Below, one piece after another: positions 24,833 through 60,925 of a stretch of 64,000 bases of DNA. This stretch comes from Pedobacter caeni (GTDB lineage: Bacteria > Bacteroidota > Bacteroidia > Sphingobacteriales > Sphingobacteriaceae): contig NZ_FQUQ01000004.1 in NCBI RefSeq assembly GCF_900129215.1, positions 930,001-994,000 of the forward strand. The letters run 5' to 3'. How positions within the stretch are numbered: position 1 is the stretch's first letter; every line of letters starts with the position of its first letter. Under the pieces are notes generated by a model. The model worked only from the letters and a program-made list of their open reading frames with translations. It was not told where the DNA came from and searched no databases. The position numbers and the translations under genes are program-made.

Positions 24833-25738
24833 TTATCCCCTCGCAATTAAACTCGTTCTGCTCAGATTCTGGTAAGCATCAATATATGCTCTTGGTGATT
24901 GCCCGGTAATGCTTTTAAATACCCGGTTAAAATTCGTGAGGCTGTTAAAGCCGGCTTTGTATGCTACCCCGGAAATGCCAGTCACTTTATTCCCCGCAAG
25001 CAGACTTTTACAGGCATCATTTACCCGGACTTCATTTAAAAAAGATACAAAAGTATGTCCGGTATGTTGTTTGAAATAACGACAAAAAGCAGGTGGGGTC
25101 ATGTACGCCTTATTGGCAATGTCATCCAAAGTGATTTGCTGGTTATAGTTACGCATGATAAAATTGATGATATTGCTCAGTCTTATGCCTTCATTTTCTG
25201 AAATATCGGAAGAATAGATCTCCGGGCAAAGCGCTTCGACCGGTTCATTTATACCTTGTAAGATATTTAACAACTGAACCAGGTTAAACAAAACATCCGT
25301 TCCTGAAGCCTCATGGACAGCAAAAATTTTAGATGAAATGTCCTTATTCCATTTAGCGGGGATTTTAAATCCATGTTTGTTATTCTTAAAAAAGACATTC
25401 AACAACTTCATTTCGGGTAAATCAAACAATGCTCTTAAAATCCCTGAGGGGTTAAAATAAAGAGAACAGGCTTCAATGCTTTTACTTTCATCACCTACGA
25501 AATAGGCCGGACTGGATTTGAAAAGATGCGGCAGGTTGGCACCAATCAAAAAGATATCTCCTGCAGAAAAGGAATGCATGTTATTACCGGCAATCAACGT
25601 TCCTTCCCCCCTCTGCACCCGGGTAATCTGCCATTCATCATGGCGGTGGAGGTACTGGTAAAAATGAGGTTGCATGATGTGTTCCGATATCACACTCTTA
25701 TCGTCTGGTACGAAAACGGTAAATGGAAGTACTTTCAT
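24833..25738 (-). CDS. AraC family regulator of the hydroxyproline operon
   Basis: The 301-residue protein has an N-terminal cupin-like sensor (HRHDEWQITRVQRGEGTLIAGN, about 30-52, and DIFLIGANLPH) and two C-terminal helix-turn-helix units (about 198-298, with ITLDDIANKAYMTPPAFCRYFK and VAYKAGFNSLTNFNRVFK). It is the last gene of the minus-strand hydroxyproline cluster. Upstream lies a 14-bp-arm inverted repeat (25752-25783) and two direct repeats 21 bases apart (25807-25841) that match a motif in the operon promoter, so autoregulation and activation of the cluster are plausible. Confidence 0.88.
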   Translation of the reverse strand: MKVLPFTVFVPDDKSVISEHIMQPHFYQYLHRHDEWQITRVQRGEGTLIAGNNMHSFSAGDIFLIGANLPHLFKSSPAYFVGDESKSIEACSLYFNPSGILRALFDLPEMKLLNVFFKNNKHGFKIPAKWNKDISSKIFAVHEASGTDVLFNLVQLLNILQGINEPVEALCPEIYSSDISENEGIRLSNIINFIMRNYNQQITLDDIANKAYMTPPAFCRYFKQHTGHTFVSFLNEVRVNDACKSLLAGNKVTGISGVAYKAGFNSLTNFNRVFKSITGQSPRAYIDAYQNLSRTSLIARG

Positions 25739-25751
25739 ATGAGTTGCTTTG

Positions 25752-25783
25752 CTGGAAGTTAATATACGGATATTAACTTCCAG
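25752..25783. repeat. Perfect 14-bp inverted repeat upstream of araC
   Basis: CTGGAAGTTAATAT (25752-25765) is the exact complement of ATATTAACTTCCAG (25770-25783), with a 4-base loop. It ends 13 bases upstream of the araC start. No T-tract follows on the minus strand, so an operator or a leader hairpin is more likely than a terminator. Confidence 0.6.
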
Positions 25784-25806
25784 TCACCAAATACAAGCAA
25801 CATCAT

Positions 25807-25841
25807 GTTAAGATATGGTCAATACCTGTTAATATTTGTCA
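25807..25841. promoter_or_regulatory. Direct repeats with 21-base period, candidate AraC binding sites
   Basis: GTTAAGATATGGTCA (25807-25821) and GTTAATATTTGTCA (25828-25841) are direct repeats starting 21 bases apart, the spacing seen at classical AraC half-sites. A related GTTAATATCCGGTCA lies on the minus strand at 30739-30753, next to the -33 box of the catabolic operon. Confidence 0.45.
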
Positions 25842-25844
25842 ACA

Positions 25845-27089
25845 TCAGCCCCTTGATGGAGAAAAGGCTTTGAGGTCAATACTGGTTTGCTGACCAGAAA
25901 TGAGCTGACTCACCAGTGCGCCCGTAGCAGGGCCAAGGCTTAAACCCATCATGCCATGTCCGGTAGCTATGGTCAGGTTTTTCATTTTGGAACTGTTTCC
26001 AATATATGGCAGTCCATCTGGCGAAGATGGCCTGAAGCCAAACCAGACCCCTTCGGCTGAAGGAAGTTTTGGATGCAGGTTGGGAAAGTACTTTGGTACC
26101 GATTCCACAATACCTTTTACCCTTTGCATATTGACCCTTGTGTTTATTTTATCCAGCTCCATGGTTCCACTGTACCTGATATCGCCGTTCATTGGCGTAA
26201 TGGCTACCCTGGCTTCACAAAGCAAAGCGGGAATCGTCATTCGCTGTTCCGGTTCTCTTTCCATAAAGGAGTAGCCCTTGCCAGGCATTAATGGCACATT
26301 AATGTCCATCATTTTGGCAATGGCCGGTGACCATGAGCCGGAAGCCAGTACATAGTGATCCGCTTCCCATACTTTATTTCCCGTAAAAACTTTGACGATC
26401 TTTCCGTCTTTCTTTTCAACCGCTGTTACCTCAGAGTGACGCACAACATGGGCTCCGTTTTGTTCCAGGAAATTCAGTAAAGCCCCCATTAATTTTGGCG
26501 GATACAAATGTCCGTCGCAACGATAATGTACTGCGCCAAGCACATCTAACTGAAGGCCTGGTTGAAGCAGTTGACATTCCTCCGGATTTAACACGCCCAT
26601 ATCCAGTCCAAGTTCTGTTCCTTTTTGCGCCAGATGTACCTCTTCTTCTCCTGCTTTCTCCGTTTTGTAAAAAGCAAGAATTCCTTTATTTTTCAACTCA
26701 AACTCAAAACCGGGTTCCCGGCTAAGCGCCTCAAAAAGCTCTTTACTAAGCAGGGATAAATCCCTTAACGGAACTGCAGAACGGGAAACGTGCCCCTCAT
26801 TTGCTGATTTAAGGAATTTCCATCCCCATCTGATCAGGTTCAGGTCCAGGGAAGGTCTGACATAAAACGGACTTTTGCTATTGAACATCCAGCGGATGCC
26901 CTGTTGAACCATCCCCGGTGAAGCCAGGGGAACAAAATGACTTGGCACGATCATTCCTGCATTTCCAAAAGAACAGCTCCCGGAGATGTCCCCTTTATCT
27001 AAAACCGTGACCTGATGACCTTGTTTGTGGAGGTAATAAGCGGAACTCAAGCCCACAATTCCTCCTCCTATAATTAAAACATGCGACAT
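25845..27089 (-). CDS. FAD-dependent D-amino-acid dehydrogenase (D-hydroxyproline dehydrogenase candidate)
   Basis: The 414-residue DadA-like flavoprotein begins with the dinucleotide-binding IIGGGIVGLSSAYYL (residues 6-20), followed by VTVLDKGDISGSCSFGNAGMI. The C-terminus has the second FAD-contact segment ATGHGMMGLSLGPATG. In the context of a 4-hydroxyproline epimerase and a DapA-family deaminase, the expected reaction is cis-4-hydroxy-D-proline to 1-pyrroline-4-hydroxy-2-carboxylate. It is third-step membrane-associated chemistry in other bacteria, usually passing electrons to the respiratory chain. It lies 34 bases downstream of the epimerase gene. Confidence 0.88.
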   Translation of the reverse strand: MSHVLIIGGGIVGLSSAYYLHKQGHQVTVLDKGDISGSCSFGNAGMIVPSHFVPLASPGMVQQGIRWMFNSKSPFYVRPSLDLNLIRWGWKFLKSANEGHVSRSAVPLRDLSLLSKELFEALSREPGFEFELKNKGILAFYKTEKAGEEEVHLAQKGTELGLDMGVLNPEECQLLQPGLQLDVLGAVHYRCDGHLYPPKLMGALLNFLEQNGAHVVRHSEVTAVEKKDGKIVKVFTGNKVWEADHYVLASGSWSPAIAKMMDINVPLMPGKGYSFMEREPEQRMTIPALLCEARVAITPMNGDIRYSGTMELDKINTRVNMQRVKGIVESVPKYFPNLHPKLPSAEGVWFGFRPSSPDGLPYIGNSSKMKNLTIATGHGMMGLSLGPATGALVSQLISGQQTSIDLKAFSPSRG

Positions 27090-27123
27090 TTAAATTCCGT
27101 TTTTTTTAAAAAATATGACCAAA

Positions 27124-28125
27124 TTAAATCACCTGAAATCCATGTGCATACGGATCATCATCATCGATCTTTATCGTATTGTAACCATATACTTTTGCCC
27201 ATCCTTCTACACTTGGAATGATCGCATCAAGATCCCCTAACTTCAGGACCTCCTCTACTTTTCCTGTAAATTTGCTCCCAATAATACTCTCATGAATAAA
27301 GGCTTGTCCGGGTAATAATTTTCCTTTTGCATGCCATTGCGCCATACGGGCAGAAGTACCGGTGCCGCAAGGAGAACGGTCAATCGCTTTATCTCCATAA
27401 AAGACAGCATTGCGTGCGGTGGATGTTGGATCCAGGGGCTCGCCTGCCCAAAGAATATGGCTGCAACCATTGATGGTATCATCTAAGGGATGAACAAAGG
27501 TATGTGCTTCATTGATGCGTTTACGGATCACCTGACTCCAGGCAATCAATTGCCCTGCAGTATACTCCTCCAGACCGGGAAAATTAGGCTGAGGGTCTAC
27601 AATTGCATAAAAATTACCCCCGTAAGCCACATCAAAAGTAATTGTTCCAAGGTCAGGACATTCAACTTCCAATCCGGATGCAGCAAGATAAGCAGGAACG
27701 TTCCTGAGTTTTACAGCGGTTACTTTTTTCCCTTCCTGCCGGTACTCAATGAGCACCAGACCTGCGGGAGCTTCCATTCTTACCAGCCCGGGAACCTTAG
27801 GGTGGATTAATCCTTCCTCTATGGCAATGGTGATCGTTCCGATCGTTCCATGACCGCACATCGGCAAACAGCCACTCGTTTCTATAAACAGTACCGCAAC
27901 ATCATTTTCCGGATCGTGTGGCGGATAAAGTATACTTCCCGACATCATATCATGGCCTCTCGGCTCGAACATCAGCCCGGTACGGATCCAATCGTATTCT
28001 TTAAGAAAATGCTGGCGTTTTTCACTCATATTGGCTCCTCTCAGCTGAGGGCCTCCTCCGGCAACCAACCTTACCGGATTTCCACAGGTATGTGCATCTA
28101 CACAAAAAAATGTTTTACTTGACAT
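27124..28125 (-). CDS. 4-hydroxyproline 2-epimerase (proline racemase family)
   Basis: The start is taken at 28125, where the ATG overlaps the upstream stop codon by one base; a longer frame to 28215 would overlap the dehydrogenase gene. The 333-residue product has both catalytic cysteines of the family: Cys90 in MCGHGT and Cys253 in SPCGTGTSAR. These two Cys act as the acid/base pair, as in proline racemase and 4-hydroxyproline epimerase; a Thr in the second position would have indicated a dehydratase. The neighbours make trans-4-hydroxy-L-proline to cis-4-hydroxy-D-proline the most likely reaction. Confidence 0.9.
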   Translation of the reverse strand: MSSKTFFCVDAHTCGNPVRLVAGGGPQLRGANMSEKRQHFLKEYDWIRTGLMFEPRGHDMMSGSILYPPHDPENDVAVLFIETSGCLPMCGHGTIGTITIAIEEGLIHPKVPGLVRMEAPAGLVLIEYRQEGKKVTAVKLRNVPAYLAASGLEVECPDLGTITFDVAYGGNFYAIVDPQPNFPGLEEYTAGQLIAWSQVIRKRINEAHTFVHPLDDTINGCSHILWAGEPLDPTSTARNAVFYGDKAIDRSPCGTGTSARMAQWHAKGKLLPGQAFIHESIIGSKFTGKVEEVLKLGDLDAIIPSVEGWAKVYGYNTIKIDDDDPYAHGFQVI

Positions 28126-29705
28126 TAGGCTTGAATTCGTTTTTGGTTGATCAGTCTGTAAATTCCGAGGGGGTTGCCATCTTTCAGCGCATCCGGTAAA
28201 AGTTCCGGATCCCAATCCTGCCAGGCAAGCGGGCGGACAAAACGATAAATCGCCGAAGTTCCGACTGAACTAAACCTGCTGTCGTTGGTTGCAGGATATG
28301 GCCCCCCATGTTGCATTGCGCTACAGACTTCTACGCCTGTTGGCACTCCGTTTCTGATGATCCGACCTGTTTTATCCATGATCTGACTGACTAAGTCTGG
28401 GTATTGCGCCAGTTCATCTCCCGCAGCAAACAGGGTGATGGTCAGCTGTCCTTCAAGTGCAGCGATCAGTTCCTCCAGTTCAATGGTATTTTCGGCCACA
28501 ACCAGCAAGGAATAAGGACCAAAGACCTCTTCCTGCAGCGCCGGTGATTTCAGAAAAGTAGCGGCAGTAACCTGAGCTATTTTAGCGGTAGACTGGTGTT
28601 TTAACTCCTCGTTCCTTAGTCCGGACTCCGCTAGCAGGCTAAGCCCGGCTTCCTGTAAGATCTTTCCCGAGCGCTGCTCATAATTGTTAAAGATACCAGG
28701 TGTCAGCATTGTTGCCGAAGGCGTTTCCGAGATCAGGGTACTTAACAATTGTTTAAAACGCTCCAAACCTTCAGACTGAACAGCGATCAACAAACCTGGA
28801 TTGGTGCAAAACTGCCCTGCTCCAAGGGTAATAGAGGCGGCACATTTTCTGGCCAGGTCTTCCGGATTTTCTGCAATCGCCTGTGGAAGTAAAATCACCG
28901 GATTGATACTCCCCATTTCGGCAAACACGGGAATCGGTTGTTTTCGTTCCTGTGCCAGTTTAACCAACTCCATTCCTCCTTTAAACGAGCCCGTAAAAGT
29001 CACGGCCCTGGTTTTTGGATGTTTTACCAGATAGGCACCGATTTCATATCCATCGTCATACAATAATGAAAATACGCCCTCCGGTACCCCAGATTTACGA
29101 ATGGCCTTTATTACAGCAGATCCGACCAGGCTACTGGTGCCTAAATGTGCCGGATGTGCCTTTACAATTACCGGACAACCTGAAGCAAGTGCTGAAGCGG
29201 TATCTCCTCCCGCAACCGAAAATGCAAGTGGAAAATTGCTCGCCCCAAAAACGACAACCGGGCCCAGGGGAACCAGCATACGTCTGATATCCGGTCTTGG
29301 GAGGGGTTGTCTTTCCGGCATGGCCGTATCTATAACCGCCTCTACCCATGATCCTTCTTCTACCAGTTGTGCGAACAACCTCAACTGTCCGGTTGTACGT
29401 CCCAGTTCTCCCTGCAACCGTCCTATTGGCAAACCACTCTCTTCAGCGGCCCTATGGATCAGTTCGTCTCCTAAAGCGGCGATCTCATCGGCTATGCACC
29501 TTAGAAAGGCAGCTTTTACATCCTTATGGAGATGCTTGTAAGTTTGAAATGCCAGTTCTGCACCTTTCAATGCTTCATCTGCCTCGGTTATTCCAGCCTT
29601 AAAGAAATCTCCTTCCAGTATTTTACCGGTAGCCGGATTTAGAGCGGAGAAACTGCCATTGGCAGTTTCCCGTTCATACGAGCAAACCATATTTTTTCCG
29701 TTCAT
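28125..29705 (-). CDS. Alpha-ketoglutarate semialdehyde dehydrogenase
   Basis: The 526-residue aldehyde dehydrogenase belongs to the branch of ketoglutarate semialdehyde dehydrogenases with an N-terminal SALNPATGKIL. Active-site residues seen are Asn157 in GASNFPLAF, Glu263 in FAEMGSINP, and nucleophile Cys300 in GAGQFCTNPG. It oxidises 2,5-dioxopentanoate to 2-oxoglutarate, the last step of hydroxyproline catabolism (also of some sugar acid pathways). The context with the epimerase and deaminase favours the hydroxyproline route. It is 20 bases downstream of the deaminase gene. Confidence 0.9.
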   Translation of the reverse strand: MNGKNMVCSYERETANGSFSALNPATGKILEGDFFKAGITEADEALKGAELAFQTYKHLHKDVKAAFLRCIADEIAALGDELIHRAAEESGLPIGRLQGELGRTTGQLRLFAQLVEEGSWVEAVIDTAMPERQPLPRPDIRRMLVPLGPVVVFGASNFPLAFSVAGGDTASALASGCPVIVKAHPAHLGTSSLVGSAVIKAIRKSGVPEGVFSLLYDDGYEIGAYLVKHPKTRAVTFTGSFKGGMELVKLAQERKQPIPVFAEMGSINPVILLPQAIAENPEDLARKCAASITLGAGQFCTNPGLLIAVQSEGLERFKQLLSTLISETPSATMLTPGIFNNYEQRSGKILQEAGLSLLAESGLRNEELKHQSTAKIAQVTAATFLKSPALQEEVFGPYSLLVVAENTIELEELIAALEGQLTITLFAAGDELAQYPDLVSQIMDKTGRIIRNGVPTGVEVCSAMQHGGPYPATNDSRFSSVGTSAIYRFVRPLAWQDWDPELLPDALKDGNPLGIYRLINQKRIQA

Positions 29706-29725
29706 ATTTTTCAGTATAGATCTGT

Positions 29726-30643
29726 TTAGATTCCCCAGCTACCTTCCGGCAATTGTGGACGATTGGCCAGTGCATCGTTAATGACCTTTAACACGCGTTC
29801 TCTTTCTGCACCTTTGATCGCCAGACGCGGTGCCCTTACGGTCTCGGTTCCTATGCCTGTTGCAGTTTCTGCAAGTTTGATGTATTGAACCAGCTTAGGG
29901 TGGATATCCAGTTCCAATACCGGCAGAAACCAACGGTAAATCGTCAAAGCTTCCGGAATACGGTTCTGTTTTACCAACCTGAAAATTGCTACTGTCTCTT
30001 TAGGGAAAGCGTCAACCAATCCTGCTACCCATCCATGGGCTCCCATCACCAGGCTTTCCATTGCCAGGGGATCTACTCCGGTCAGGATTTTAAACCTGTC
30101 GCCAAAGCGGTTGATCATCCGGGTCACATTAGAAATATCTCTTGTCGACTCTTTTACGGCCTGTATGTTTTCATGTTTCGATAATACCTCAAACATATCC
30201 AGCGTCACTTCTATCTTATAATCTACAGGATTGTTATAAATCATGATTGGCAATGGTGTGCTTAGCGCCACTGCTTCAAAAAAGGCAAGTGTTTCTTCCT
30301 GATCTGCAAAATAGCGCATTGGAGGAAGCAGCATCAGTCCGTTTGCCCCTAATTGTTCTGCCTTCTTAGCCGCAGCTACTGCTTTTTTTGTAGTTGGTTC
30401 TGCAATATTTAACAATACCGGAACTCTTCCGTTAATCACCTTTAGAGTATGAGACAATAACTCAAACTTTTCCTCATCACTCAGCACACTCGCCTCTCCT
30501 AAGGAGCCTCCAAGAATAATACCTGCAGCACCTGCAGCCAGCTGAGCCTCCAGGTTAATATTAATCATGTTAAAATCTAACTCATCCTGGTCCGTAAATT
30601 TTGTGGTTACAGCAGGAAATACCCCCATCCAATTGATACTCAT
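29726..30643 (-). CDS. DapA-family lyase, candidate 1-pyrroline-4-hydroxy-2-carboxylate deaminase
   Basis: The 305-residue TIM-barrel enzyme belongs to the DHDPS/NAL family. The Schiff-base lysine is Lys164 in IQAVKEST and the conserved Tyr136 is in IMIYNNPVDY; GGSLGEASVLS replaces the GTTGE loop of true DapA. Within this operon the expected reaction is deamination of 1-pyrroline-4-hydroxy-2-carboxylate to alpha-ketoglutarate semialdehyde. It is the first gene of the catabolic operon, with a promoter candidate at 30710-30738. Confidence 0.87.
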   Translation of the reverse strand: MSINWMGVFPAVTTKFTDQDELDFNMININLEAQLAAGAAGIILGGSLGEASVLSDEEKFELLSHTLKVINGRVPVLLNIAEPTTKKAVAAAKKAEQLGANGLMLLPPMRYFADQEETLAFFEAVALSTPLPIMIYNNPVDYKIEVTLDMFEVLSKHENIQAVKESTRDISNVTRMINRFGDRFKILTGVDPLAMESLVMGAHGWVAGLVDAFPKETVAIFRLVKQNRIPEALTIYRWFLPVLELDIHPKLVQYIKLAETATGIGTETVRAPRLAIKGAERERVLKVINDALANRPQLPEGSWGI

Positions 30644-30709
30644 ACGTTATTTGATTTATTTTTTAATTAAAAACAAGAGCTGATTGCCTTTATAGCTCCT
30701 GATGAAAAT

Positions 30710-30738
30710 CAAATTTAGTCGTTTAACAGGGGGCCAAA
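30710..30738 (-). promoter_or_regulatory. Promoter of the hydroxyproline catabolic operon
   Basis: On the minus strand TTTG (30738-30735) and TAAATTTG (30717-30710) are separated by 17 bases, matching the Bacteroidota promoter pattern. It lies 67 bases before the DapA-family start. The motif GTTAATATCCGGTCA (30753-30739, minus strand) directly abuts the -33 box, the classical position for an AraC-type activator. Confidence 0.5.
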
Positions 30739-30817
30739 TGACCGGATATTAACCAATATGCCTTGTAAATACACCAGATCATTTCCATTCATAAAGAATC
30801 CGGGTTCGGGAAAGAAA

Positions 30818-30852
30818 ATAAAAAAACAGGTACGCGACCAAACGTACCTGTT
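30818..30852 (-). terminator. Rho-independent terminator after SusD
   Basis: A perfect 10-bp stem AACAGGTACG (30825-30834) / CGTACCTGTT (30843-30852) with an 8-base loop is followed on the minus strand by a run of T. It ends the SusC/SusD transcript, so the catabolic genes downstream rely on their own promoter. Confidence 0.85.
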
Positions 30853-30904
30853 AACCAACCTAAAGTAAATGGAGAGCGTTAATTCTCAGATGGAGTTTAT
30901 TTTC

Positions 30905-32671
30905 TTACCATCCGGGATTTTGTTTGATTGCCGGATTTAAACTCATCTGTTCGATTGGAATTGGTGATAAATAATCCCGTTGAATCTTGAACTGGTAACC
31001 AGCAGCCATTGCTGGAATATTCTTGAACAATTCAATATAACCGTTTGCATCAACAGGATAACCGGACAGATTTCCCGCAGGAACTATTCCAACCCACTGC
31101 GCCAATATTGCACCTTTAGGTTTCCAACCCACTAACAATTCATCGGCCGCAGCCCAACGGTAAAGGTCATCTCTGCGATAGCCTTCACAAGCCAGCTCTA
31201 TTCTTCTTTCTCTCCGCACTTCATTGATGATTGGTCCCAATGCTGGAAACTCCCATTTAGGATCCGGAGTAATTCCTCCCAATACCAGGTTAGGCATTCC
31301 AACCCTTGTTCTCAATTTATTAATGGTCAGGTCGGCATCTCCCTGAGTAAAAGTTCCTAATTCCGCTTTAGCTTCTGCATTGATCAATAATGCTTCCGCA
31401 AATCTGAAAATGATGTACCCTGTTGTTCCTCTGTCCTGTTGCTGATTATAATCCGGGTTATGCCCTTTATAAACCTGATAGCCTGTAGCAGGTTTGCTTT
31501 CATTGGCAGCAGTAAAACTTGGGACGGTAAAAGGGATACTCGCTCCACCGTTAGGTACATTATTCGTGTTAAAGTGATTGCCGTCATTCACATATAGGGT
31601 CTGCACCATTCTCGGATCTCTGTTTTTAACGACATTCAACAAATTGGCATCTCCCTGATATAAAGCATTTCCGGTAATCGGTTTTCCATCAGTACAGAGG
31701 TAATAATCGATCAGATTTTTAGTAATCCCTCTTCCTGCACCTGAATTGGTATATCTATGCCAGTAATGCCCACCTACTGTACTCAGGTCATATTGTCGCC
31801 AGAGCATCATCTCAGGATTTGTGGAGTAATTGCTTTGATTAAACAGCTTCCAGTATCCATCTGGCCCGGGTGTCGGGGCAAGGCCATAGCCACCGGCATC
31901 TCCGATCAGGGTGGTCGTTACTGTTGCTGCCTTTTCCAGGAATTTTTTGCCATCAGAACCACTTACACCAAAAGGAGTATTGGCATGGTATTTCTCCCAT
32001 GTTCCTTCAAAAAGAGCTATCCTTGCCTGAAGCAATTGTGCTACCTGTTTATTTACTCTGGAAGCCTGTGCGGCAGGTTTGGAGGGTAAATATTGTACTG
32101 CTTTATCCAGGTCATTCATAATGGAATCAACAATGACCGATCTTGATAATCTTCCGGCTGTCAATTCATCTGAAGCTGGATTCAGGGGGGTATTGATCCA
32201 TGGAAGATCGCCAAACTGTTTCAGTTTACTAAAATAAAACCAGGCTCTGAAAAATAAAGCCTCTCCTACATAGCTTTTAGTATTATCCCAGGAAGCATTT
32301 ACCTTATTGTAATTGGCCATAAAGTAATTGATATTTCTCAGCATGGTCCAATCGCCGGTTGCCCATCCACCGGCAGAGCCCGGCACTACCCTCGCTCCAT
32401 TCAATGTTTCATTTACTGACATCGTGATCATATTGTCGCTCCCCTCATCGGCATCCTGTCCATATGGACCTATCGTACCAAATGCGCTTATTGTAGATGG
32501 AAAAGCAGTGTATAGGTTATTGACATATAACTGAAGATCTCCCGGAGTTTTCCAAAATTCTGTTTCACTGATGTTCGTTTCCGGATTCCTGTCCAGAAAA
32601 TCTTTCTTACAACCCGCCAAAAAAATCAGGCCTATAAGTACTGTTAGATATAGTTTATTGCGCATAATCAT
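30905..32671 (-). CDS. SusD/RagB family nutrient-binding lipoprotein
   Basis: The 588-residue lipoprotein has the signal peptide MIMRNKLYLTVLIGLIF with lipobox LAGC; a second ATG two codons in (32665) could be the start. It then shows KKDFLDRNPETNISETEFWKT, typical of SusD N-termini, a helical TPR-like body, and a C-terminal SusD_RagB end with VRRERRIELACEGYRRDDLYRW and LSPIPIEQMSLNP. It caps the SusC transporter encoded 22 bases upstream. Given the downstream genes, the ligand is probably a peptide rather than a glycan. Confidence 0.93.
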   Translation of the reverse strand: MIMRNKLYLTVLIGLIFLAGCKKDFLDRNPETNISETEFWKTPGDLQLYVNNLYTAFPSTISAFGTIGPYGQDADEGSDNMITMSVNETLNGARVVPGSAGGWATGDWTMLRNINYFMANYNKVNASWDNTKSYVGEALFFRAWFYFSKLKQFGDLPWINTPLNPASDELTAGRLSRSVIVDSIMNDLDKAVQYLPSKPAAQASRVNKQVAQLLQARIALFEGTWEKYHANTPFGVSGSDGKKFLEKAATVTTTLIGDAGGYGLAPTPGPDGYWKLFNQSNYSTNPEMMLWRQYDLSTVGGHYWHRYTNSGAGRGITKNLIDYYLCTDGKPITGNALYQGDANLLNVVKNRDPRMVQTLYVNDGNHFNTNNVPNGGASIPFTVPSFTAANESKPATGYQVYKGHNPDYNQQQDRGTTGYIIFRFAEALLINAEAKAELGTFTQGDADLTINKLRTRVGMPNLVLGGITPDPKWEFPALGPIINEVRRERRIELACEGYRRDDLYRWAAADELLVGWKPKGAILAQWVGIVPAGNLSGYPVDANGYIELFKNIPAMAAGYQFKIQRDYLSPIPIEQMSLNPAIKQNPGW

Positions 32672-32693
32672 ATTTTTTTATAATCCCTGTTAA

Positions 32694-35600
32694 TTAAAAG
32701 GTCACACTTAATCCGGCAGAATAACTTCTTTGCAGCGGATATACTTTTCCTTCATTCAAAGTCAGTTCAGGATCCAGAGCTTTGGTAAATTTGGTAAAGG
32801 TGGCCAGGTTTTCTATGCTCAGATAAAACCTGACTTTACTCACTTTTACCCTTTCCAGCCATTCTTTTTTCAGGGTATATCCCAGCTGTACATTTTTTAT
32901 TCTCATGTATGATGCATCCTGCAGGTAACGCGTTTGTGCCTGGGTATTTTTATTATTCTGGCCACTCATATAAGCTTTAGGATAATACCCATTCGGATTC
33001 CCGGCCGACCAGCGGTCCATATGCGTGGTAAATAAGGAGCTTTGCCATTCATCACCAACAATGCCCCAGAAGTAATTTCCAGTGATTGCAGCATCTCGTT
33101 TACCTACTCCCTGTACAAAGATCATGGCATCAAATCCATTCCAGTTCGCATCAAGGGTAAGTCCATAGGCATATCTGGCGGTATTGTTTCCAATGATTTT
33201 ACGATCACCCGGATCAGAAAGCGTAGAAGTTCCCGCATCTATTTTCCCATCTCCATTAAGATCCGCATAACGTACATCTCCCGGAGTCCAGGCATTCTGA
33301 TCAATTCTGGACTGTGAAGGTGCTCCTGCTACTTCTTCAGCACTTTGGAAAAGCCCCATCGTTTGGTAACCCCAGATTTCGCCCAGTTGCTGGCCTTTAT
33401 ACGAAGTACTTAGCTGACCTGTTGGATTTGGATAATTGGTTACTTTTCCACTATAATCACTTAGTACCCCTTTAAATCCATAATTCACATTTCCGATTTT
33501 ATCTCTCCATCCAACCGACAGTTCCCATCCTCTGGTTTCAACAGAAGAATTATTTACCTGTGGAGAACCTGTCCCTAAAACCGCAGGCACAACGGCTGCC
33601 GGGCCTCTGACATCAGTTGCCTTACGGATATACCAGTCGAATGAGGTATTCAGTCTATTGTTAAAGAAAGCGATGTCTGTTCCAAAATTCAAAGTAGCTG
33701 TTGTTACCCAGGTCAGGTTATTGTTTACCAATCCAGGCAAACCTACTACTGCCTGTTGTGCACCACCAAACAACCAGGAACCTCTTCCCGTAGGCAGGCT
33801 AGGATAGAAAGGGTAATAATTATTCTCTAAAAACAGCTGATCACCCAACTCTCCATAAGAAGCCCTGAATTTTAAATTGTTTACATACTTTTTTACCGGT
33901 TCAAAGAAAGATTCCTTATCGACATTCCAGCCAGCCGAAACTCCCGGATAAGCCTTCCACCTTACATCACTTAAAAAACGGGACGTTCCATCATAACGGG
34001 CACTCAATTCAAGCAGGTATTTTTCTTTATAATTATAGTTTAACCGACCGAAAAAGCCTTCCGAAGCCAATTTTCTAATTTGATCAGAAACCCCCGGGCT
34101 CGTTCCGTAAGAAGTAGAAAGTGAAGGAATATTATCAGAATACAGAAAATTATTGCTGGCGGTATAGGCCTGAAAATTGGTATAATCACTTACAAACCCG
34201 CCCATCACGCTGAAATAATGATCTTCCAGCTGTTTTTCATATTGTGAGTAAATATTGATCACCTCATGCTGAATTCTTTCATTATACCGGGTAAAACCAT
34301 TAGGTGTTGTTCCACCTAATGTCCGTTGAGAACCATCAGGCAGATAAGTATATAAGGTCTTCAGGTGGTTACTCTGGTCAAAATAAGTACCATCAAAAGT
34401 ATAATTTGCAACTGCTGTCCATCCCTTTGCCAATTTAAAATTAAGCTCACCGGTTAGCAAACCTTTATCTGTGATTTGATTGTCCCGTCCCCCTTCTTCC
34501 ATTAACTGCACATTACTATCTGCGGAGAAACGTCCATCCGGATTGTAAAGCGGAACAGTTGGAAACTTGCGGGCGATCTGATGCATATAGGCACGATCGC
34601 CACCTCCGGTTTGTCCGGCATAAACATTTGGTGTATTGAACAATTCCCTGGAGAAGGTACCTCTTACACTCATGGTCAGCCATTTGGAAACATCAGAAGT
34701 CAGGTTCACACGAAGGTTATAACGTTTATATTTATCATCACCGTAAGTGTACATTCCACTCCTGTCGTTAAAACCTGCACCCACAAAATAAGTTGAAGCT
34801 GCAGAGCCTCCGTTGAGGCTTAAATTGTGTTGCTGGCTATAAGAATGGTCTTTATAATAAATTTTAAACCATTCGTTATTTGCGTTCGCAGCATTGTAAG
34901 AGAAGTAATTATTGTTTGCAGGATCCTTGATTGTTTCTGTACTCAGGATTCCGGCCTGAAAGTCCTTGATTCGCTGAAGGGTAGGTCCATCAAAGAAAGG
35001 AGATTTTCCTGCGTTTACAAATGCTTCGTTATACGTATTGGCAAAATCCAGGGAGTTTACCATTTGCGGTAAATTGAAGATTTTGTTCATGGAGATGTTG
35101 TTGTTGTAGGTGATGGTTGTTGGCTTATTTCTATCTCCCTGCTTGGTTTTGATCAGGATGACTCCATAAGGTGCACTTGAACCATAAATCGCAGCAGAGG
35201 ACGCATCCTTCAGTACCGAAATACTTTCCACATCATCCGGATTGAGGGTATTGATATCTCCCCCCTGAATTCCGTCGATCACGATTAAAGGACTTCCGGG
35301 TTCCCCAAGTCCGGTATACCCTCTGACATTTATTCCCTGTTTTGCATTTGGCCCCCCTCCGGAATTTCCAATACTGATGTTTAAATTCGCAACCTGTCCT
35401 TGCAAAGCCTGGCTTACGCGGGTGATGGGACGATCGGCAAGATCTTTTCCAGTCACCTGAGCAACAGCACCTGTCAGGCGTGTTTTCTTCTGACTTCCGT
35501 AAGCCACCACCACCACGTCCTCCAGTTCATTTGGTTTGGGCAATAACTTAATGACCATATTTTGAGAACCAGCCTTGATTTCCTGAGAAATATAACCCAC

Positions 35601-36155
35601 AAAAGAAACTTCGAGGATGGCATTCTCGTCAACGCCTGCGAGTAAAAAGGCACCGTTGACATCCGTTACAGCTCCTTTACTCCCTCCTTTTACTTTAACT
35701 GAGGCCCCTGGCAAGGGGCTGCCGCTTTCATCCAGAACTTTCCCTTTAACATCCAGGAAACGAAGGATCACCTGGATTTTTTCAGAAATGACCGTTTCTT
35801 TTTCTCTGATGACCACGATTTTATCTTCTACCACATAGGTTAGTGGCAAATCTTTAAGGCAAACATCCAATACCGTTTCGATGGAAGCATTGTTAAAGTT
35901 TGCATTCACACTGGTGGTATTTTTTACTTTTTTAGCCGACCAGATAATGTTGTAACCTGTTTGTTTATTGATTTCATTAAACACCTGTTTAAGGGTCGCA
36001 TTTTTTCTGGAATAAGTAACTTTTTGTGCGAAGCCTGTAGCACTTACCTGCAGGGCTGTAGCGATTAAGAAAATGACGGTCAGTTTTACACTTACCAGAA
36101 ATTTACGGGTATACCTGGGCGGCACACCAAAACTTTTAGTATAATTTTTATACAT
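32694..36155 (-). CDS. SusC/RagA family TonB-linked transporter with STN domain
   Basis: The 1153-residue protein has an extended N-terminus and signal peptide ending ATGFAQ (about residue 44), an STN domain (about 48-118, LKQVFNEINKQTGYNIIW), a CarboxypepD_reg domain (about 136-208), a plug with VIDGIQGGDINTLNPDDVESISVLKDASSAAIYGS, and a barrel ending in Phe (SAGLSVTF). The STN domain signals to FecR, matching the fecR and sigma-ECF genes directly upstream. It forms a transport pair with the SusD downstream and probably serves the hydroxyproline catabolic genes. Confidence 0.95.
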   Translation of the reverse strand: MYKNYTKSFGVPPRYTRKFLVSVKLTVIFLIATALQVSATGFAQKVTYSRKNATLKQVFNEINKQTGYNIIWSAKKVKNTTSVNANFNNASIETVLDVCLKDLPLTYVVEDKIVVIREKETVISEKIQVILRFLDVKGKVLDESGSPLPGASVKVKGGSKGAVTDVNGAFLLAGVDENAILEVSFVGYISQEIKAGSQNMVIKLLPKPNELEDVVVVAYGSQKKTRLTGAVAQVTGKDLADRPITRVSQALQGQVANLNISIGNSGGGPNAKQGINVRGYTGLGEPGSPLIVIDGIQGGDINTLNPDDVESISVLKDASSAAIYGSSAPYGVILIKTKQGDRNKPTTITYNNNISMNKIFNLPQMVNSLDFANTYNEAFVNAGKSPFFDGPTLQRIKDFQAGILSTETIKDPANNNYFSYNAANANNEWFKIYYKDHSYSQQHNLSLNGGSAASTYFVGAGFNDRSGMYTYGDDKYKRYNLRVNLTSDVSKWLTMSVRGTFSRELFNTPNVYAGQTGGGDRAYMHQIARKFPTVPLYNPDGRFSADSNVQLMEEGGRDNQITDKGLLTGELNFKLAKGWTAVANYTFDGTYFDQSNHLKTLYTYLPDGSQRTLGGTTPNGFTRYNERIQHEVINIYSQYEKQLEDHYFSVMGGFVSDYTNFQAYTASNNFLYSDNIPSLSTSYGTSPGVSDQIRKLASEGFFGRLNYNYKEKYLLELSARYDGTSRFLSDVRWKAYPGVSAGWNVDKESFFEPVKKYVNNLKFRASYGELGDQLFLENNYYPFYPSLPTGRGSWLFGGAQQAVVGLPGLVNNNLTWVTTATLNFGTDIAFFNNRLNTSFDWYIRKATDVRGPAAVVPAVLGTGSPQVNNSSVETRGWELSVGWRDKIGNVNYGFKGVLSDYSGKVTNYPNPTGQLSTSYKGQQLGEIWGYQTMGLFQSAEEVAGAPSQSRIDQNAWTPGDVRYADLNGDGKIDAGTSTLSDPGDRKIIGNNTARYAYGLTLDANWNGFDAMIFVQGVGKRDAAITGNYFWGIVGDEWQSSLFTTHMDRWSAGNPNGYYPKAYMSGQNNKNTQAQTRYLQDASYMRIKNVQLGYTLKKEWLERVKVSKVRFYLSIENLATFTKFTKALDPELTLNEGKVYPLQRSYSAGLSVTF

Positions 36156-36265
36156 TTGGTTGTTCTTTTCGTCTGATTGCCACAGCTTTCGAAGGTTATG
36201 GGCAATTAGAAAATGATTAAGAAAATAATTGATTTCAATTTTTTTAACGATCGCAGAACATTAGT

Positions 36266-36287
36266 CAGGGGCGTTCCAGCGCTCCTG
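36266..36287. other. Hairpin in the fecR-susC interval
   Basis: An 8-bp stem CAGGGGCG / CGCTCCTG (one G-T pair if read on the plus strand) with a 6-base loop lies in the 245-base gap between fecR and susC. No T-tract follows on the minus strand. It may be a leader structure or an attenuator that sets the ratio of fecR to susC expression. Confidence 0.35.
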
Positions 36288-36400
36288 ATTTTGTGGACTG
36301 AGCATCTATTGATCTAGCTAGGGATCTTTTTCTACATGTCTCATACTTGGTTAGGTTTTTGGTTAGTAATATTTATTTTCTCTGGTCTGATTCTTAGTTG

Positions 36401-37537
36401 TTATTTTTTGTGTCCGATGATGATCTTTCTACCTTCCAGTTTAAAGCTTAGCTCTTTGGTCATTTCCAACATTTTCAATACCTGAGAGACTTTTTCAGAG
36501 CGCTTTACAATTCCACCAAACTCCAGCTCTTTAAGGTCCTCATTCTGAAATTCAATTTCCACATCGTACCATCTGGAGACTTTTTTCATGATACTCTCCA
36601 GGGATTCATCATCAAACCTGAAGTTCCCCATTTTCCAGGCCATCACATTTTCGATATCCGCGGGGACGACCTTTATGTTTTTTCCATTAAGCACAGATTG
36701 TTGATCAGGCCTAAGCCGCGTTCCATTTACCACAATACTTCCCTCTAATAAGGTGGTGTATGTATTTTGTTCATCAGGATAACTATTGATGTTAAAATGG
36801 GTTCCTAATACACTCACTTCCTGTCCGGCGGAACTCACGACAAATGCTTTCTTTGGATCTTTGGCCACCTCAAAATAGGCCTCACCAATCAGCTCTACCC
36901 GACGTTCATTACTGGCAGAAAAATTTGTTGGGAATTTCAGAGAAGAGGCCGCATTTAACCAGACCTTTGTTCCATCCGGCAGGTTCACCTGATATTGACC
37001 AGCCCTTGGTGTACTGATCGTATTGTATTCGAGCTTAGTTCCGGCGGAAGGCATCACAGTATAAATTAATTGTGCGTCTTTTCCTTTGCTGATCTTTACC
37101 CCTGCCTGTTCAATCAGTTTACCTGATTTGGTATCTGTAAGAGATAATTTAGTGCCATCCGCGAGGGTTAGAAAAGCTTTATTCGATCCAGGTAAAATAT
37201 CCAGTTTAGCAATATCCTGCGGTTGATCCTTCGATGTTGAAGCATATCGGTAGAAGAACAATCCAAAAGAAAGACTGATGAGCAGGATTGCTGCTATGGC
37301 AATGCGGTACCTGATAAAAAATGGTTTTTCCTGCCGGATTTCCTGCTGGATTTTTTTAAACATTCTGGACTTATGCCAATCTTCATTATTTACAAACGTT
37401 TCCGGAATTTCCAGATCCAGGTTCTGGTCTCTGTTATACCAATTGGCAAACTCTACCTCTTCTTCGGCTGTAATTGTTTTATCCAGCCATTTAGAAGCCA
37501 GTTCCTGATACCGTTTATTTTCTTTAGAATCGTCCAT
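36401..37537 (-). CDS. FecR-type anti-sigma factor
   Basis: The 378-residue protein has a cytoplasmic N-terminal domain (about 1-75) that would hold the sigma factor, one membrane segment (about 76-96, RIAIAAILLISLSFGLFFY), and a periplasmic FecR domain with the hallmark YQVNLPDGTKVWLNAASSLKFP, VELIGEAYFEVAKD, VLGTHFNINSY, and a C-terminal DUF4974/STN-like segment. It transmits the loading state of the STN-containing SusC to the sigma-ECF encoded immediately upstream. Confidence 0.93.
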   Translation of the reverse strand: MDDSKENKRYQELASKWLDKTITAEEEVEFANWYNRDQNLDLEIPETFVNNEDWHKSRMFKKIQQEIRQEKPFFIRYRIAIAAILLISLSFGLFFYRYASTSKDQPQDIAKLDILPGSNKAFLTLADGTKLSLTDTKSGKLIEQAGVKISKGKDAQLIYTVMPSAGTKLEYNTISTPRAGQYQVNLPDGTKVWLNAASSLKFPTNFSASNERRVELIGEAYFEVAKDPKKAFVVSSAGQEVSVLGTHFNINSYPDEQNTYTTLLEGSIVVNGTRLRPDQQSVLNGKNIKVVPADIENVMAWKMGNFRFDDESLESIMKKVSRWYDVEIEFQNEDLKELEFGGIVKRSEKVSQVLKMLEMTKELSFKLEGRKIIIGHKK

Positions 37538-37604
37538 CCGTTATAGGGCTATATAACAGAGGTCTCCTGTGAAAGGCGAATCCCTTAGTGGAATTAAAAA
37601 TATT

Positions 37605-38168
37605 TTACAACAAGGTCGTCATAAATTGATTTAGCCCTGCCCGCAAAGTTTTCAAAGCTTTACCTAAATGGGCCTCAACCGTCTTTTCAGAGATTTCCAG
37701 CTCTTCCGCGATTTTTTTCTGAGAGCAGCCATTTTCTCTACTCATCCGGTATACGAGGCGGCATTTTTCGGGTAAGGCACAAACGAGTTTTTCCAGACGT
37801 TCTTTCAATTCCAGGAAGTCAAGCCATTCCTGAGTAGAATCGTCTGTAATTCCTTTCATGCCAAGACTGGCAGTATATTTTTGCTGGTTGTATTGTTTAT
37901 CCAGGGATTTAATGACCCTATATTTTACAGAGACAGCGAGGTAGGCAGAAAGGCTGGAGGTAATTTTCAAACTGTCTCTCCTGTTCCAAAGAGAAACGAA
38001 AATATGCTGCACAATTTCTTCTGCCTCTCCCAGGTCTTTTATTTTATGCGCTGCCACGAGAAATAGCTTTTTCCAATACCTGTTGTAGATCTCGGTAAAA
38101 GCGGCATGGTCTCCATTCTCCAGCAGAGCAGTCAGTTCCGGATCAGTAAAATTTCGATACCTATTCAT
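37605..38168 (-). CDS. ECF RNA polymerase sigma factor (Bacteroidota FecI-like)
   Basis: The start is taken at the ATG at 38168 (MNRYRNFTD), since the longer frame adds an unrelated hydrophobic stretch. The 187-residue protein has sigma region 2 (FTEIYNRYWKKLFLVAAHKI, AEEIVQHIFVSLWNRR) and region 4 (LPEKCRLVYRMSRENGCSQKKIAEELEISEKTVEAHLGKALKTLR). It is the first gene of the fecI/fecR/susC/susD set and should direct transcription of the transporter genes. Confidence 0.93.
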   Translation of the reverse strand: MNRYRNFTDPELTALLENGDHAAFTEIYNRYWKKLFLVAAHKIKDLGEAEEIVQHIFVSLWNRRDSLKITSSLSAYLAVSVKYRVIKSLDKQYNQQKYTASLGMKGITDDSTQEWLDFLELKERLEKLVCALPEKCRLVYRMSRENGCSQKKIAEELEISEKTVEAHLGKALKTLRAGLNQFMTTLL

Positions 38169-38481
38169 GATGATTCCCCTTTCATAAATCCTAAAGAATA
38201 ATACCATTAAAGAATGGCCTATCTCTATACATGTCCCCACACAATTGTAACGAAAAAATTAAGCAAAAAGAATTGAGAGAGACGATGAAAGGCTGCGCAT
38301 ACGTTTGCATTGACAATTTCAAACGTATGCGTAATTTTCTGGCGGGAGGAAATCAAACACTCAAATTGGAGGAACACATGAGATATCTTGATGTCCTGAC
38401 ATCTGAATATATACATATCTTAATATCAGAACTATATAAATCTTCAAAAGATCATTAACATGACAATAAATTAGAAGAGCA
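38169..38481. other. 313-base region with a 12-bp inverted repeat
   Basis: The stretch upstream of the sigma-ECF gene holds CGCATACGTTTG (38296-38307) and its exact complement CAAACGTATGCG (38320-38331) around a 12-base loop. A 75-codon plus-strand frame (38231-38458) crosses it, but has no visible ribosome site or recognisable product, so I do not call it. No clear promoter was found. Confidence 0.45.
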
Positions 38482-40517: not shown

Positions 40518-41450
40518 TTACAATTTCTCAATTTCTTCAACTGAAAGCTTTGTGATTTTGGAAATTTGATCAACTGGCATCCCTGTTTCCTTTAATTCAA
40601 GGGCAATAGCCAATCTTGCTTTTTGGTCACCTCTCTCCATCCCTTCCTGCAGACCTTTCTGCCTACCTTCCTCTACCCCCTCAATCCTGGCCTCTTCCAT
40701 CCCCTCTTTTCTGGCGAATTCAATAGTAGCCATATAATCCCGTTTCGCCTTTAAATTAGATTCATAAACTTTCCGTTGTTCTTCTGTTAATTTACTCACC
40801 TCTGCGATTTTAAATAGTTTTTGAAAAATTCCTTTATTGAGGTACAATGGGATCTTGTCCATTTGGCTCATATTTTTTAGAATATAAAGCCACTTGTCCA
40901 GATCTGATTCCAGTTCGTTGCCCCCTTTATCAAAATTAGGTAATTCCAGGAATTTAAACCCTAACCTATCGTAGAAAACTTCACCCGTATCTTTGTTCAT
41001 TAAGGCGATGTCATGTAAATAACGGTCATGATCCTGATCTTTAAGCTTGAATTCCAATATTGCGATTAAATACACCTCCTTAAGCTTGGTATCCCAATTT
41101 GGTGTTCCTTTGGGAAGCTGTTCGCTAATTAATCTGGATAAATAAAAAATGCAACGGTCATGAAAACATTCTTGTTCCCTCCGCTGCATTTCGATAATAA
41201 ACTGGTCACCATCTTTTCCTGTACACATCAGGTCAAAAAAGACTTTCTTATACTCATCGGTGTTTCCCCCATACTCTGTCGGACTAAAAACCAGATCCAC
41301 AATTTCCTTTTTTCCTGCAAAAATGGCATTCAGAAAAGCAATCATGATTTCTTTATTGGGTTCACTCCCTAAAAGATGTTTAAAACCAAAGTCTGTAAGC
41401 GGATCAATGTATCGGGATATAGGACCGGAAGTTATCGTTGTAAGTATCAT
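40518..41450 (-). CDS. Rpn family PD-(D/E)XK nuclease (PDDEXK_2)
   Basis: The 310-residue protein belongs to the Rpn/transposase_31-related family. It has PLTDFGFKHLLGSEPNKEIMIAFLNAI, then the nuclease core VFFDLMCTGKDGDQFIIEMQR, with Asp and Glu-x-Gln in the places of the PD-(D/E)XK motif. The C-terminal half carries the characteristic charged repeat (GMEEARIEGVEEGRQKGLQEGMERG) and a short helical motif ending in LSVEEIEKL. E. coli RpnA promotes RecA-independent recombination; some relatives act in phage defence. No inverted repeats or target duplications flank it, so it is not called an insertion sequence. Confidence 0.88.
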   Translation of the reverse strand: MILTTITSGPISRYIDPLTDFGFKHLLGSEPNKEIMIAFLNAIFAGKKEIVDLVFSPTEYGGNTDEYKKVFFDLMCTGKDGDQFIIEMQRREQECFHDRCIFYLSRLISEQLPKGTPNWDTKLKEVYLIAILEFKLKDQDHDRYLHDIALMNKDTGEVFYDRLGFKFLELPNFDKGGNELESDLDKWLYILKNMSQMDKIPLYLNKGIFQKLFKIAEVSKLTEEQRKVYESNLKAKRDYMATIEFARKEGMEEARIEGVEEGRQKGLQEGMERGDQKARLAIALELKETGMPVDQISKITKLSVEEIEKL

Positions 41451-43196: not shown

Positions 43197-44219
43197 TTAC
43201 TTTACAAAATCACGGTGTGGAATAAAAATATCATCCCCCTCCCTTCCATATTGCGGCACAATAAACGCCTTGCTTTCGTAACGTTTGGTCCCTGAATTAT
43301 AGTACCAGTCCGCGCATCCGCTGATCTGCAATTTGATGTGATAAACATAATTGGATGCTTCCTCCTGGTATGGACTAAAATCGGGTAGAGAGGCATGTAT
43401 TTCATTCAGCTCTTTCGCATATTCATCATGAATTCTCATCCCTTCAATACAAGCTTCCTGATAAGATAACTGATAGTGATGCCTTAGAATAAATACGATA
43501 TTCATAAACTCACCTTCTATATCAAGTTCCTTTTTCAGAGAAGCAAAATCATTCTGAATGACAATGATCAATGCAAGCAACTCATTTGCACGCTTAATCA
43601 AAGGATGCTTATGAATATGCACCGGCAATGCAAAATTGGTACAAGGATCGATCAGATCGCCAAAAGGTCCCATCCCGATAGAATACTTGCGAAAACTGAA
43701 GTAATGGGCCAGCGTAGGATAAGTTCTCTTTTCAGCCAGTTTAAATGGTGCTTCCTCGAGCATTCCATAAACGATAAATTCATAAAAATTCAGAGAAACC
43801 CGCTCTATCCAGAAACGCGGCATAAATACTTCCCATTCCTTTCTTGCCTCAGCCATTTGCCGGAGTATACCGAGTTCATCAGGCTGAGGATCATCACCAA
43901 GCATGACTTCATAAACCCGGTCCGCAATGGCCTTTAATTCCTTTACAGGAGTGAGTCCAAAATAATCATCGAAAAGTGTGATATAAATCATCAGCCTTGC
44001 ACAAGGACGCATACGCTCTATACTATCACAGGTTGGGTTCATATAAGTGGCCACCTGAGAAAGCTGTTGTATTTTACACCTTTTTATTCCTTCTTCAGAG
44101 ATAAAAGTATAATCATTGTCGTACCAGGCAATTTCTTCCTGATCAAAATCTGTTGCGATCGGACTTGGTATGGTAGCCCATGGATAATAGCACTTAGGGA
44201 CAACTAGTTCTTCATTCAT
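43197..44219 (-). CDS. Terpene synthase (class I cyclase), copy 1
   Basis: The 340-residue protein is a bacterial class I terpene cyclase. Metal-binding motifs are complete: Asp84-Asp85 in LFDDYFG, sensor Arg177 in SFRKYS, and the NSE triad Asn223, Ser227 and Glu231 (NDFASLKKE). The C-terminal region contains a TKRYES segment resembling the RY pair. It would ionise a prenyl diphosphate and cyclise it; substrate length (FPP or GGPP) is not certain. It is the last gene of the terpenoid operon, 28 bases after its paralogue. Confidence 0.92.
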   Translation of the reverse strand: MNEELVVPKCYYPWATIPSPIATDFDQEEIAWYDNDYTFISEEGIKRCKIQQLSQVATYMNPTCDSIERMRPCARLMIYITLFDDYFGLTPVKELKAIADRVYEVMLGDDPQPDELGILRQMAEARKEWEVFMPRFWIERVSLNFYEFIVYGMLEEAPFKLAEKRTYPTLAHYFSFRKYSIGMGPFGDLIDPCTNFALPVHIHKHPLIKRANELLALIIVIQNDFASLKKELDIEGEFMNIVFILRHHYQLSYQEACIEGMRIHDEYAKELNEIHASLPDFSPYQEEASNYVYHIKLQISGCADWYYNSGTKRYESKAFIVPQYGREGDDIFIPHRDFVK

Positions 44220-44247
44220 ATATTTGAGTATTAAAAAAGTGTAATCA

Positions 44248-45240: not shown

Positions 45241-45257
45241 AGGACATGATTTTTATG

Positions 45258-46445: not shown

Positions 46446-46459
46446 ATAGGGATGATGAT

Positions 46460-49598: not shown

Positions 49599-49655
49599 GG
49601 TTTAAAGAGGTTAATCAGGGATGAAACTTTCTAGTATAGGAAAAGAAATATCTGG

Positions 49656-51599: not shown

Positions 51600-51626
51600 A
51601 TCGATTTCAGATAAAAAGGTGAGTTT

Positions 51627-60828: not shown

Positions 60829-60925
60829 CCGGTTAAAATTTTCAGACCTAAACATATATTTTATTTTTTTTCAATTCTTTGGGGGATCGCAGCTCCTTAT
60901 GGTACATACCTAAAAAGCAACAATT

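Follow-up and report, generated by a model that had tools for sequence, protein, structure and literature searches.

A 64-kb stretch of the Pedobacter caeni genome (contig NZ_FQUQ01000004.1, positions 930,001 to 994,000; hereafter the window) carries a complete operon for hydroxyproline catabolism (hyp operon) directly downstream of a SusC/SusD (SusCD) pair on the same strand. We consider it likely that this operon is a unit of its own, that the neighbouring SusCD genes are unrelated to it, and that it belongs, together with another locus found on contig C11 of the same genome (own genome, G000), to one regulon dedicated to a plant hydroxyproline-rich glycoprotein, most likely extensin. The proposal draws on gene families, synteny, tree placement and a recurring operator-like site. 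An earlier note on this DNA had coupled the operon to the adjacent sigma/FecR/SusC/SusD genes, taken as a possible uptake system for a hydroxyproline-rich peptide.

The hydroxyproline operon and its promoter

Nine minus-strand genes between 24833 and 38168, identified from open reading frames (ORFs), Pfam and NCBIfam, encode a sigma factor, FecR, SusC, SusD, a DHDPS-family protein, an ALDH-family protein, an epimerase, a DAO-family protein and an AraC-type regulator. 4HypE, DAAO, DHDPS and ALDH are the families of the epimerase route to 2-oxoglutarate (PMC4113996, partial text), and in the window the three partners of the epimerase all lie in one cluster with it. The gene for 4-hydroxyproline epimerase (HypE, 333 aa; 27124-28125), whose start overlaps the ALDH stop by one base (TAATG), is on sequence grounds the surest of the four assignments, and its activity on trans-4-hydroxy-L-proline is predicted. 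The protein scores 595.5 bits against NF010578 (cut-off 376) and 303.2 bits against the proline racemase model, under the cut-off of 556. Cys90 and Cys253 (residues 88 and 251 of the 331-aa query), which we take to be the catalytic pair, are invariant in seven sequences; the query used for this alignment and for the genome search was 27124-28119, minus the first two residues. A two-cysteine rule for the epimerase has been described (PMC4113996, partial text).

The roles of the other three enzymes are assigned from family and context. The DHDPS-family gene (29726-30643; PF00701, 2e-50) would encode pyrroline-4-hydroxy-2-carboxylate deaminase (HypD), a role suggested by the pathway (PMC4113996, partial text) and by the conserved gene order. 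The ALDH-family gene (28125-29705; PF00171, 2.4e-45) would by its context encode 2-oxoglutarate semialdehyde dehydrogenase (HypH), the nearest solved chains to its product being 3v4c and 1eyy. The gene of the FAD-dependent D-amino-acid oxidase/dehydrogenase family (DAO; 25845-27089; PF01266, 1.5e-68) would encode cis-4-hydroxy-D-proline oxidase (HypO). Among the matches listed (25 for the ALDH-family protein), no NCBIfam model lies above its cut-off for the DHDPS- and ALDH-family proteins, and no curated NCBIfam cut-off is reached by the DAO protein, which scores 264.8 bits against NF001933 (cut-off 383). The AraC-type gene (24833-25738; PF12833, 4e-18) is the putative regulator of the operon, an assignment consistent with the AraC tree. 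Families, NF010578 score and gene order thus bear out the full four-enzyme route that the earlier note placed downstream of SusCD on the same strand.

The 261-bp gap between SusD and DHDPS holds both a hairpin and a promoter, all on the minus strand. The hairpin (30825-30852, 11 pairs) resembles an intrinsic terminator and is the best site of the terminator scan, with -15.9 kcal/mol, z -4.28 and none of 200 shuffles as good. It is followed by a conserved operator-like element of 38 nt (30739-30776) and by a -7-type TAnnTTTG promoter box, TAAATTTG (30710-30717), placed by its spacing to a GG core. Comparison of 51 DHDPS upstream regions, window included, revealed a GG[TC]TAA core in 42 and none in 9. 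Ten outlying rows of the 42 were dropped by eye, and in all 32 promoters kept the TAnnTTTG box stands exactly 37 nt past the start of the GG core. A position weight matrix (PWM) of the operator was trained on the promoters of 28 distinct relatives, the window trio excluded. Its sole match above 4 bits in the window is the 30739-30776 element (30.5 bits), and 577 kb of random windows contain none; with softer weights the window site scores 31.9, the next best in the window 13.0 and the best control 15.3. Because the terminator-like hairpin, the conserved element and the TAnnTTTG box all lie between the two gene sets, we propose that the hyp operon is a transcription unit apart from SusCD, a likely part of the two-locus reading.

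The adjacent SusCD unit

The SusCD unit comprises, on the minus strand, SusD (30905-32671; PF07980, PF14322), the TonB-dependent transporter SusC (32694-36155; TIGR04056, 842 bits), a FecR anti-sigma factor (36401-37537; PF04773, PF16344) and an ECF sigma factor of 187 aa (37605-38168; TIGR02985, 144.4 bits). For the latter the ATG at 38168 was used; the ORF list had placed the start at the GTG at 38240. A PD-(D/E)XK nuclease family transposase gene (40518-41450, minus strand) sits close to the sigma gene, where the DNA is rich in A+T, and might be relevant to rearrangements of that block.

If this unit imported a hydroxyproline-rich peptide and were coupled to the adjacent hyp operon, the direct same-strand adjacency would be accounted for, as would the finding that three close relatives have the same block near their hyp operons. 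We hold such coupling to be very improbable, as the terminator-like hairpin and the separate hyp promoter already argue against it and no operator match is listed in the window upstream of the sigma gene with either PWM weighting.

The neighbourhood is moreover poorly conserved. A search for HypE gave matches in 55 genomes out of 148, counting the own one. One genome with a partial HypE at a contig end (G011) was left out and 53 relatives were fetched in windows of at most 20 kb, giving with the window 54 loci; apart from L078 and L084, all belong to the same genus as the window. All four core genes are present in 52 of the loci, and contig ends cut the core in the other two; 49 of the 54 locus maps bear a label for an AraC-type gene, which does not always adjoin the operon. 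A second collection, the named set, consists of the best 80 of 575 loci and therefore leans to close relatives; 73 remained after removal of 7 duplicates of the Pedobacter set. An orthologous SusC is restricted to the window, L032 and L033 among the 54 loci, and in the named set is also found in P. steynii (L105). In these three relatives, AraC and BD-FAE esterase genes intervene between SusD and DHDPS. The direct adjacency seen in the window could mean either that these two genes were lost there or that the relatives gained them: both are possible because the window and L033 form a pair in the AraC tree, while the SusC tree places the window outside L032, L033 and L105. On the AraC tree alone, loss in the window is the simplest reading.

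The AraC tree also places the regulator of the hyp operon of two Chryseobacterium loci (L114 and L115) inside the clade of Pedobacter, suggesting that the gene reached Weeksellaceae by horizontal transfer. Two loci titled Williamsia (L160) and Thalassovita (L184) come from metagenome-assembled genome (MAG) contigs labelled Actinomycetota and Pseudomonadota but carry Bacteroidota-like hyp loci, and mis-binning is likely.

Homologues of the window's SusD (77-45% identity) in five genomes (G049, G056, G031, G014 and G026) do not share a contig with the hyp operon, and no hyp gene was found in the fetched 20 kb around them. In G056, G031 and G014 a GH29 fucosidase lies beside the homologue, together with a sulfatase, GH20 or GH2. 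The neighbours are an RND efflux set in G049, and in G026 the single scanned neighbour has only a sub-threshold Abhydrolase_7 match. Nor is SusC enriched near hyp operons, as it is found in 14 of 54 loci and in 11 of 29 random 20-kb windows of the same genomes (p 0.92).

The hyp-adjacent SusCs that do occur are in part related to each other. Searches with SusC were thresholded or limited in the number of matches (at least 49 per genome in one of them). In a SusC tree of 56 rows, clade A has 12 hyp-adjacent members (Pedobacter, Mucilaginibacter, one Bacteroidetes MAG and Chitinophagaceae) and clade B five (Pedobacter, G123 and Allomuricauda). No control or other SusC of the tree falls within either clade. 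The window's SusC lies outside both and groups with L032, L033, L105 and L089-L092. No glycosidase family exceeds the cut-off among the scanned window proteins, and the SusCD unit is therefore not a polysaccharide utilisation locus in the sense of SusCD with glycosidases. We conclude that it probably belongs to another uptake system, for a glycan. The separate transcription signals, a neighbourhood shared only with close relatives, the homologues in glycan loci and the distinct SusC clade led us to reject the coupling put forward in the earlier note. Its suggestion of a hydroxyproline-rich peptide as ligand fares better in part: comparative genomics favours a plant hydroxyproline-rich protein as the source, with SusCD pairs other than that of the window as importers.

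Genes recurring beside hyp operons

As the earlier note had remarked, there is no peptidase in the cluster: among 39 distinct window proteins (14254-62092), no peptidase-named Pfam family exceeds the cut-off. Other loci differ. The maps of the 54 loci show aminopeptidase P, M24 Xaa-Pro aminopeptidase, M1-like peptidase, GH127, DUF5695, DUF885 and an amino-acid permease; the families were labelled from BLAST or phmmer matches to Pfam-typed representatives. Contig ends shorten several of the locus windows (e.g. L050, L074, L076), which makes the family counts lower bounds. As control we used the 29 random windows, which remained from 40 after exclusion of 11 lying within ~30 kb of a hyp operon; of these excluded windows, L200, L205 and L209 contain module genes and L224 a permease.

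GH127 is found beside the hyp operon in 15 of 54 loci and prolyl peptidases in 31, both being absent from the 29 random windows. One or the other is present in 36 of 54 loci versus 0 of 29 (p 2.4e-10, an optimistic value because the families were chosen after viewing the loci and the loci are related). The permease is present in 19 of 54 loci and one of 29 random windows. The 73 loci of the named set include 29 with GH127, 24 with DUF885, 18 with prolyl peptidases, 37 with GH127 or a prolyl peptidase, 13 with a GH27 alpha-galactosidase and 19 with SusC (the last figure without a matched control). Chance neighbourhood of GH127 and hyp genes is unlikely because only 3-6 GH127 matches were found per genome (11 genomes).

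The order and strand of these genes vary among Sphingobacteriaceae, Chitinophagaceae and Flavobacteriaceae. A Mucilaginibacter locus (L108) combines GH127, SusC, SusD-like_2, the hyp operon, AraC, DUF885, permease and DUF5695, and a Flagellimonas locus (L174) SusCD, GH97, M61, AraC, the hyp operon, DPP4, GH127, DUF885 and DUF5695. In eight loci of Mucilaginibacter and Bacteroidetes (L130-L134, L137, L138 and L140), GH127 and GH27 alpha-galactosidase genes directly precede the hyp operon.

DUF885 members carry an invariant H-E-L-x-x-G-H motif, with P in the consensus. With the structure model as query, the best VIA-align matches are solved DUF885 structures, then M32, M3 and ACE-type peptidases, with Z up to 13.4 and a root-mean-square deviation of ~5-7, although helical models may give background; this is no more than suggestive of a metallopeptidase (clan MA). 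DUF5695 (PF18951; L048 13584-16349 and relatives) lies beside hyp in 23 of 54 loci and none of the 29 random windows. It has no relative in the PDB by sequence (best E 0.87), and its model, with a mean pLDDT of 49.5, is too poor to assign a fold.

A partner locus on contig C11

Two of the three GH127 matches of the own genome lie on contig C11, in a locus (L099/L225, 244.0-279.9 kb) whose module extends over ~244.0-269.5 kb. The gene series, recognised by Pfam and BLAST, is SusC, SusD, GH30_2, GH35, GH127, an unassigned gene, GH127, AraC, DUF885, permease, a GH51-type gene, SusC and a SusD-like gene. GH30_2, GH35 and both GH127 were typed by Pfam, SusC and SusD by BLAST; the GH51-type gene is 93% identical to a GH51-type protein of another genome, G070. 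With SusCD genes accompanied by glycosidases, the locus qualifies as a polysaccharide utilisation locus.

Two features link it to the hyp system. The second SusC (L225 5109-8114) belongs to clade A; it is 76% identical to that of the hyp-linked locus L055 and falls into one 100/100 clade with hyp-linked Pedobacter SusCs. Its 466-aa partner (L225 8133-9533) is assigned solely by its position after SusC, the counterpart in L108 being SusD-like_2. The first SusC is in neither clade, and the own genome has no close clade-B SusC (best 38%). In addition, the AraC protein of the locus is 67% identical to that of the window, nests among Pedobacter hyp AraCs and is, by these sequence relationships, a paralogue of the hyp regulator.

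Equivalent loci exist in two other genomes. That of G070 contains GH30, GH35, three other genes, both GH127, AraC, DUF885, permease and the GH51-type gene. That of G059 has GH35, one GH127, AraC, DUF885, permease and a GH51 fragment, with a clade-A SusC ~17 kb from the fragment.

An operator-like site shared by both loci

We searched for the window's 16-base promoter site, allowing at most 2 mismatches. Of the seven sites that the own genome (7.83 Mb) contains, one, with 2 mismatches, lies on C11 in the 173-bp gap upstream of AraC, which separates that gene from GH127; by our arithmetic, the chance that one of the six other sites falls into this gap is ~1.3e-4. Of the eight sites in G059, just two have 1 mismatch: one in the hyp promoter and one in the gap upstream of the AraC gene that corresponds to that of C11; here GH127 is replaced by a short gene. 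In G070, with three sites, both of these places are again matched. Reversed-pattern controls gave 0 (G000), 3 (G059) and 1 (G070) sites. With at most 1 mismatch, a broader half-site pattern matches the own genome three times, twice on C11 and once at the window's site, although this result is circular because the pattern was drawn by eye from sites that it then found. A further 17 half-sites with 2 mismatches, among them one in the window's DAO-AraC interval, are at background level (16 in the reversed control) and were discarded.

The module and the hyp operon could share a neighbourhood by descent only, the operator match on C11 being background. The loci are indeed related by descent and background sites with 2 mismatches do exist. 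However, gene orders and strands differ across three families, each of the three genomes tested has the site upstream of its C11-type AraC, with a single mismatch in G059, and the C11 AraC is paralogous to the hyp regulator. Passive synteny of this kind therefore seems improbable to us.

Proposed function

The two-locus reading makes predictions about regulation, substrate, transport specificity and enzyme activities. AraC, acting at the conserved site (core 37 nt before TAnnTTTG), would switch on the hyp operon from the promoter between SusD and DHDPS, and the products of DHDPS, ALDH, HypE and DAO would convert trans-4-hydroxy-L-proline to 2-oxoglutarate. The C11 locus would strip arabinose and galactose from a plant hydroxyproline-rich glycoprotein, most likely extensin, cut the peptide, with DUF885 as putative metallopeptidase, and import the pieces. 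The hyp operon and the C11 locus would thus be one regulon split over two loci.

The serine-linked galactose of extensin is the alpha anomer. Extensin carries hydroxyproline (Hyp)-O-arabinosides as well as this Ser-O-galactose (PMC7933510, partial text), and the GH127 enzyme HypBA1 is part of a system for Hyp-linked arabinosides (PMC7263609, partial text). The recurrence of GH127 and GH27 beside hyp operons fits these two kinds of linkage. It is this recurrence, against a complete absence of GH127 from the random windows, that speaks against a different diet, in which the operon would mainly serve free hydroxyproline or peptides from collagen or arabinogalactan-proteins and the GH127 neighbours would reflect a broader use of arabinan or pectin. 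Such a diet appears unlikely, but has points in its favour. C11 encodes GH30_2, GH35 and a GH51-type enzyme, which also suit arabinogalactan, and glycosidases are missing from the fetched window at many hyp loci. PF07944, moreover, covers both GH127 and GH146, and GH146 was found in work on plant pectin (PMC7263609, partial text).

This last ambiguity also weighs against the two-locus reading itself, as do several other observations. Expression of both loci, and growth by means of them, are predictions from sequence. Neither GH127 nor a prolyl peptidase is found near hyp in 18 of 54 loci, the window included, and in 36 of 73 loci of the named set, and the significance of the recurrence is overstated for the reasons given above. 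Eight hyp-adjacent SusCs (L036, L064, L066, L135, L148, L153, L167 and L180) fall outside both clades, and clade A may not be exclusive because a SusC 49% identical to that of L055 lies elsewhere in the own genome. The parts of the module can also be dispersed: the clade-A SusC of G070 is ~0.1 Mb from its module, and the aminopeptidase P of the own genome (69%) is on a third contig, C21, which lacks the module. Finally, the C11 site differs from that of the window at 2 of 16 bases, five further 2-mismatch sites lie elsewhere in the own genome, and the 38-nt PWM has no match above 4 bits on C11 (best soft score 8.8).

More tentatively, these loci may represent a widespread and so far undescribed Bacteroidota system for plant hydroxyproline-rich glycoproteins. 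SusCD pairs of clades A and B would import arabinosylated Hyp peptides, GH127, alpha-galactosidase, prolyl peptidases and DUF885 would strip and cut them, and AraC would tie these steps to Hyp catabolism, even where the genes are split over contigs.

Other features of the window

A second ECF sigma and FecR pair (60238-62092, plus strand) is followed by a SusC match that runs past the window end (G000:C17:992659-995676). An MEP-pathway/terpene cluster (43197-52598, minus strand) includes two terpene synthases, DXR, LytB/IspH, DXS, GcpE/IspG and a polyprenyl synthetase.

Relation to known systems

The window shares with described epimerase-route hyp clusters (PMC4113996, partial text) the presence and adjacency of the four families and an epimerase with both cysteines and a score over the curated cut-off. 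Those clusters were described with transport systems and regulators, and the main text has no occurrence of SusC, TonB, Pedobacter, Bacteroidetes or arabino-. The HypBA1/HypBA2/HypAA system of Bifidobacterium longum (PMC7263609, partial text) likewise relies on a GH127-family enzyme for Hyp-linked arabinosides, but with an ABC sugar importer and, in the text examined, no hydroxyproline catabolism; here SusCD, peptidases, a permease and the hyp operon are found. Like SusC/SusD polysaccharide utilisation loci, C11 combines SusCD pairs with glycosidases; it differs from the usual ones by DUF885, the permease and a hyp-type AraC, and may be tied to amino-acid catabolism. RagAB of Porphyromonas gingivalis is a SusCD-type pair implicated in protein uptake (PMC11817032, partial text), a likeness by description only, and the difference here is the linkage to hydroxyproline genes. 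For Latescibacteria, degradation of hydroxyproline-rich glycoproteins by GH127 has been proposed (PMC4454575, partial text). A hyp operon joined to SusCD or GH127 was not found in the literature searched by title and abstract, which covered few subscription papers. Each kind of component is already known, the combination being what did not turn up there.

Extensins and related glycoproteins are parts of the plant cell wall, and in the literature searched we found little on the use of their protein part by soil bacteria. If the proposal is correct, it would name candidate importers, peptidases and a regulator for this use, and suggest a setting for the DUF885 and DUF5695 proteins. It would also mean that the nearest SusCD pair need not be the functional partner of a catabolic operon.

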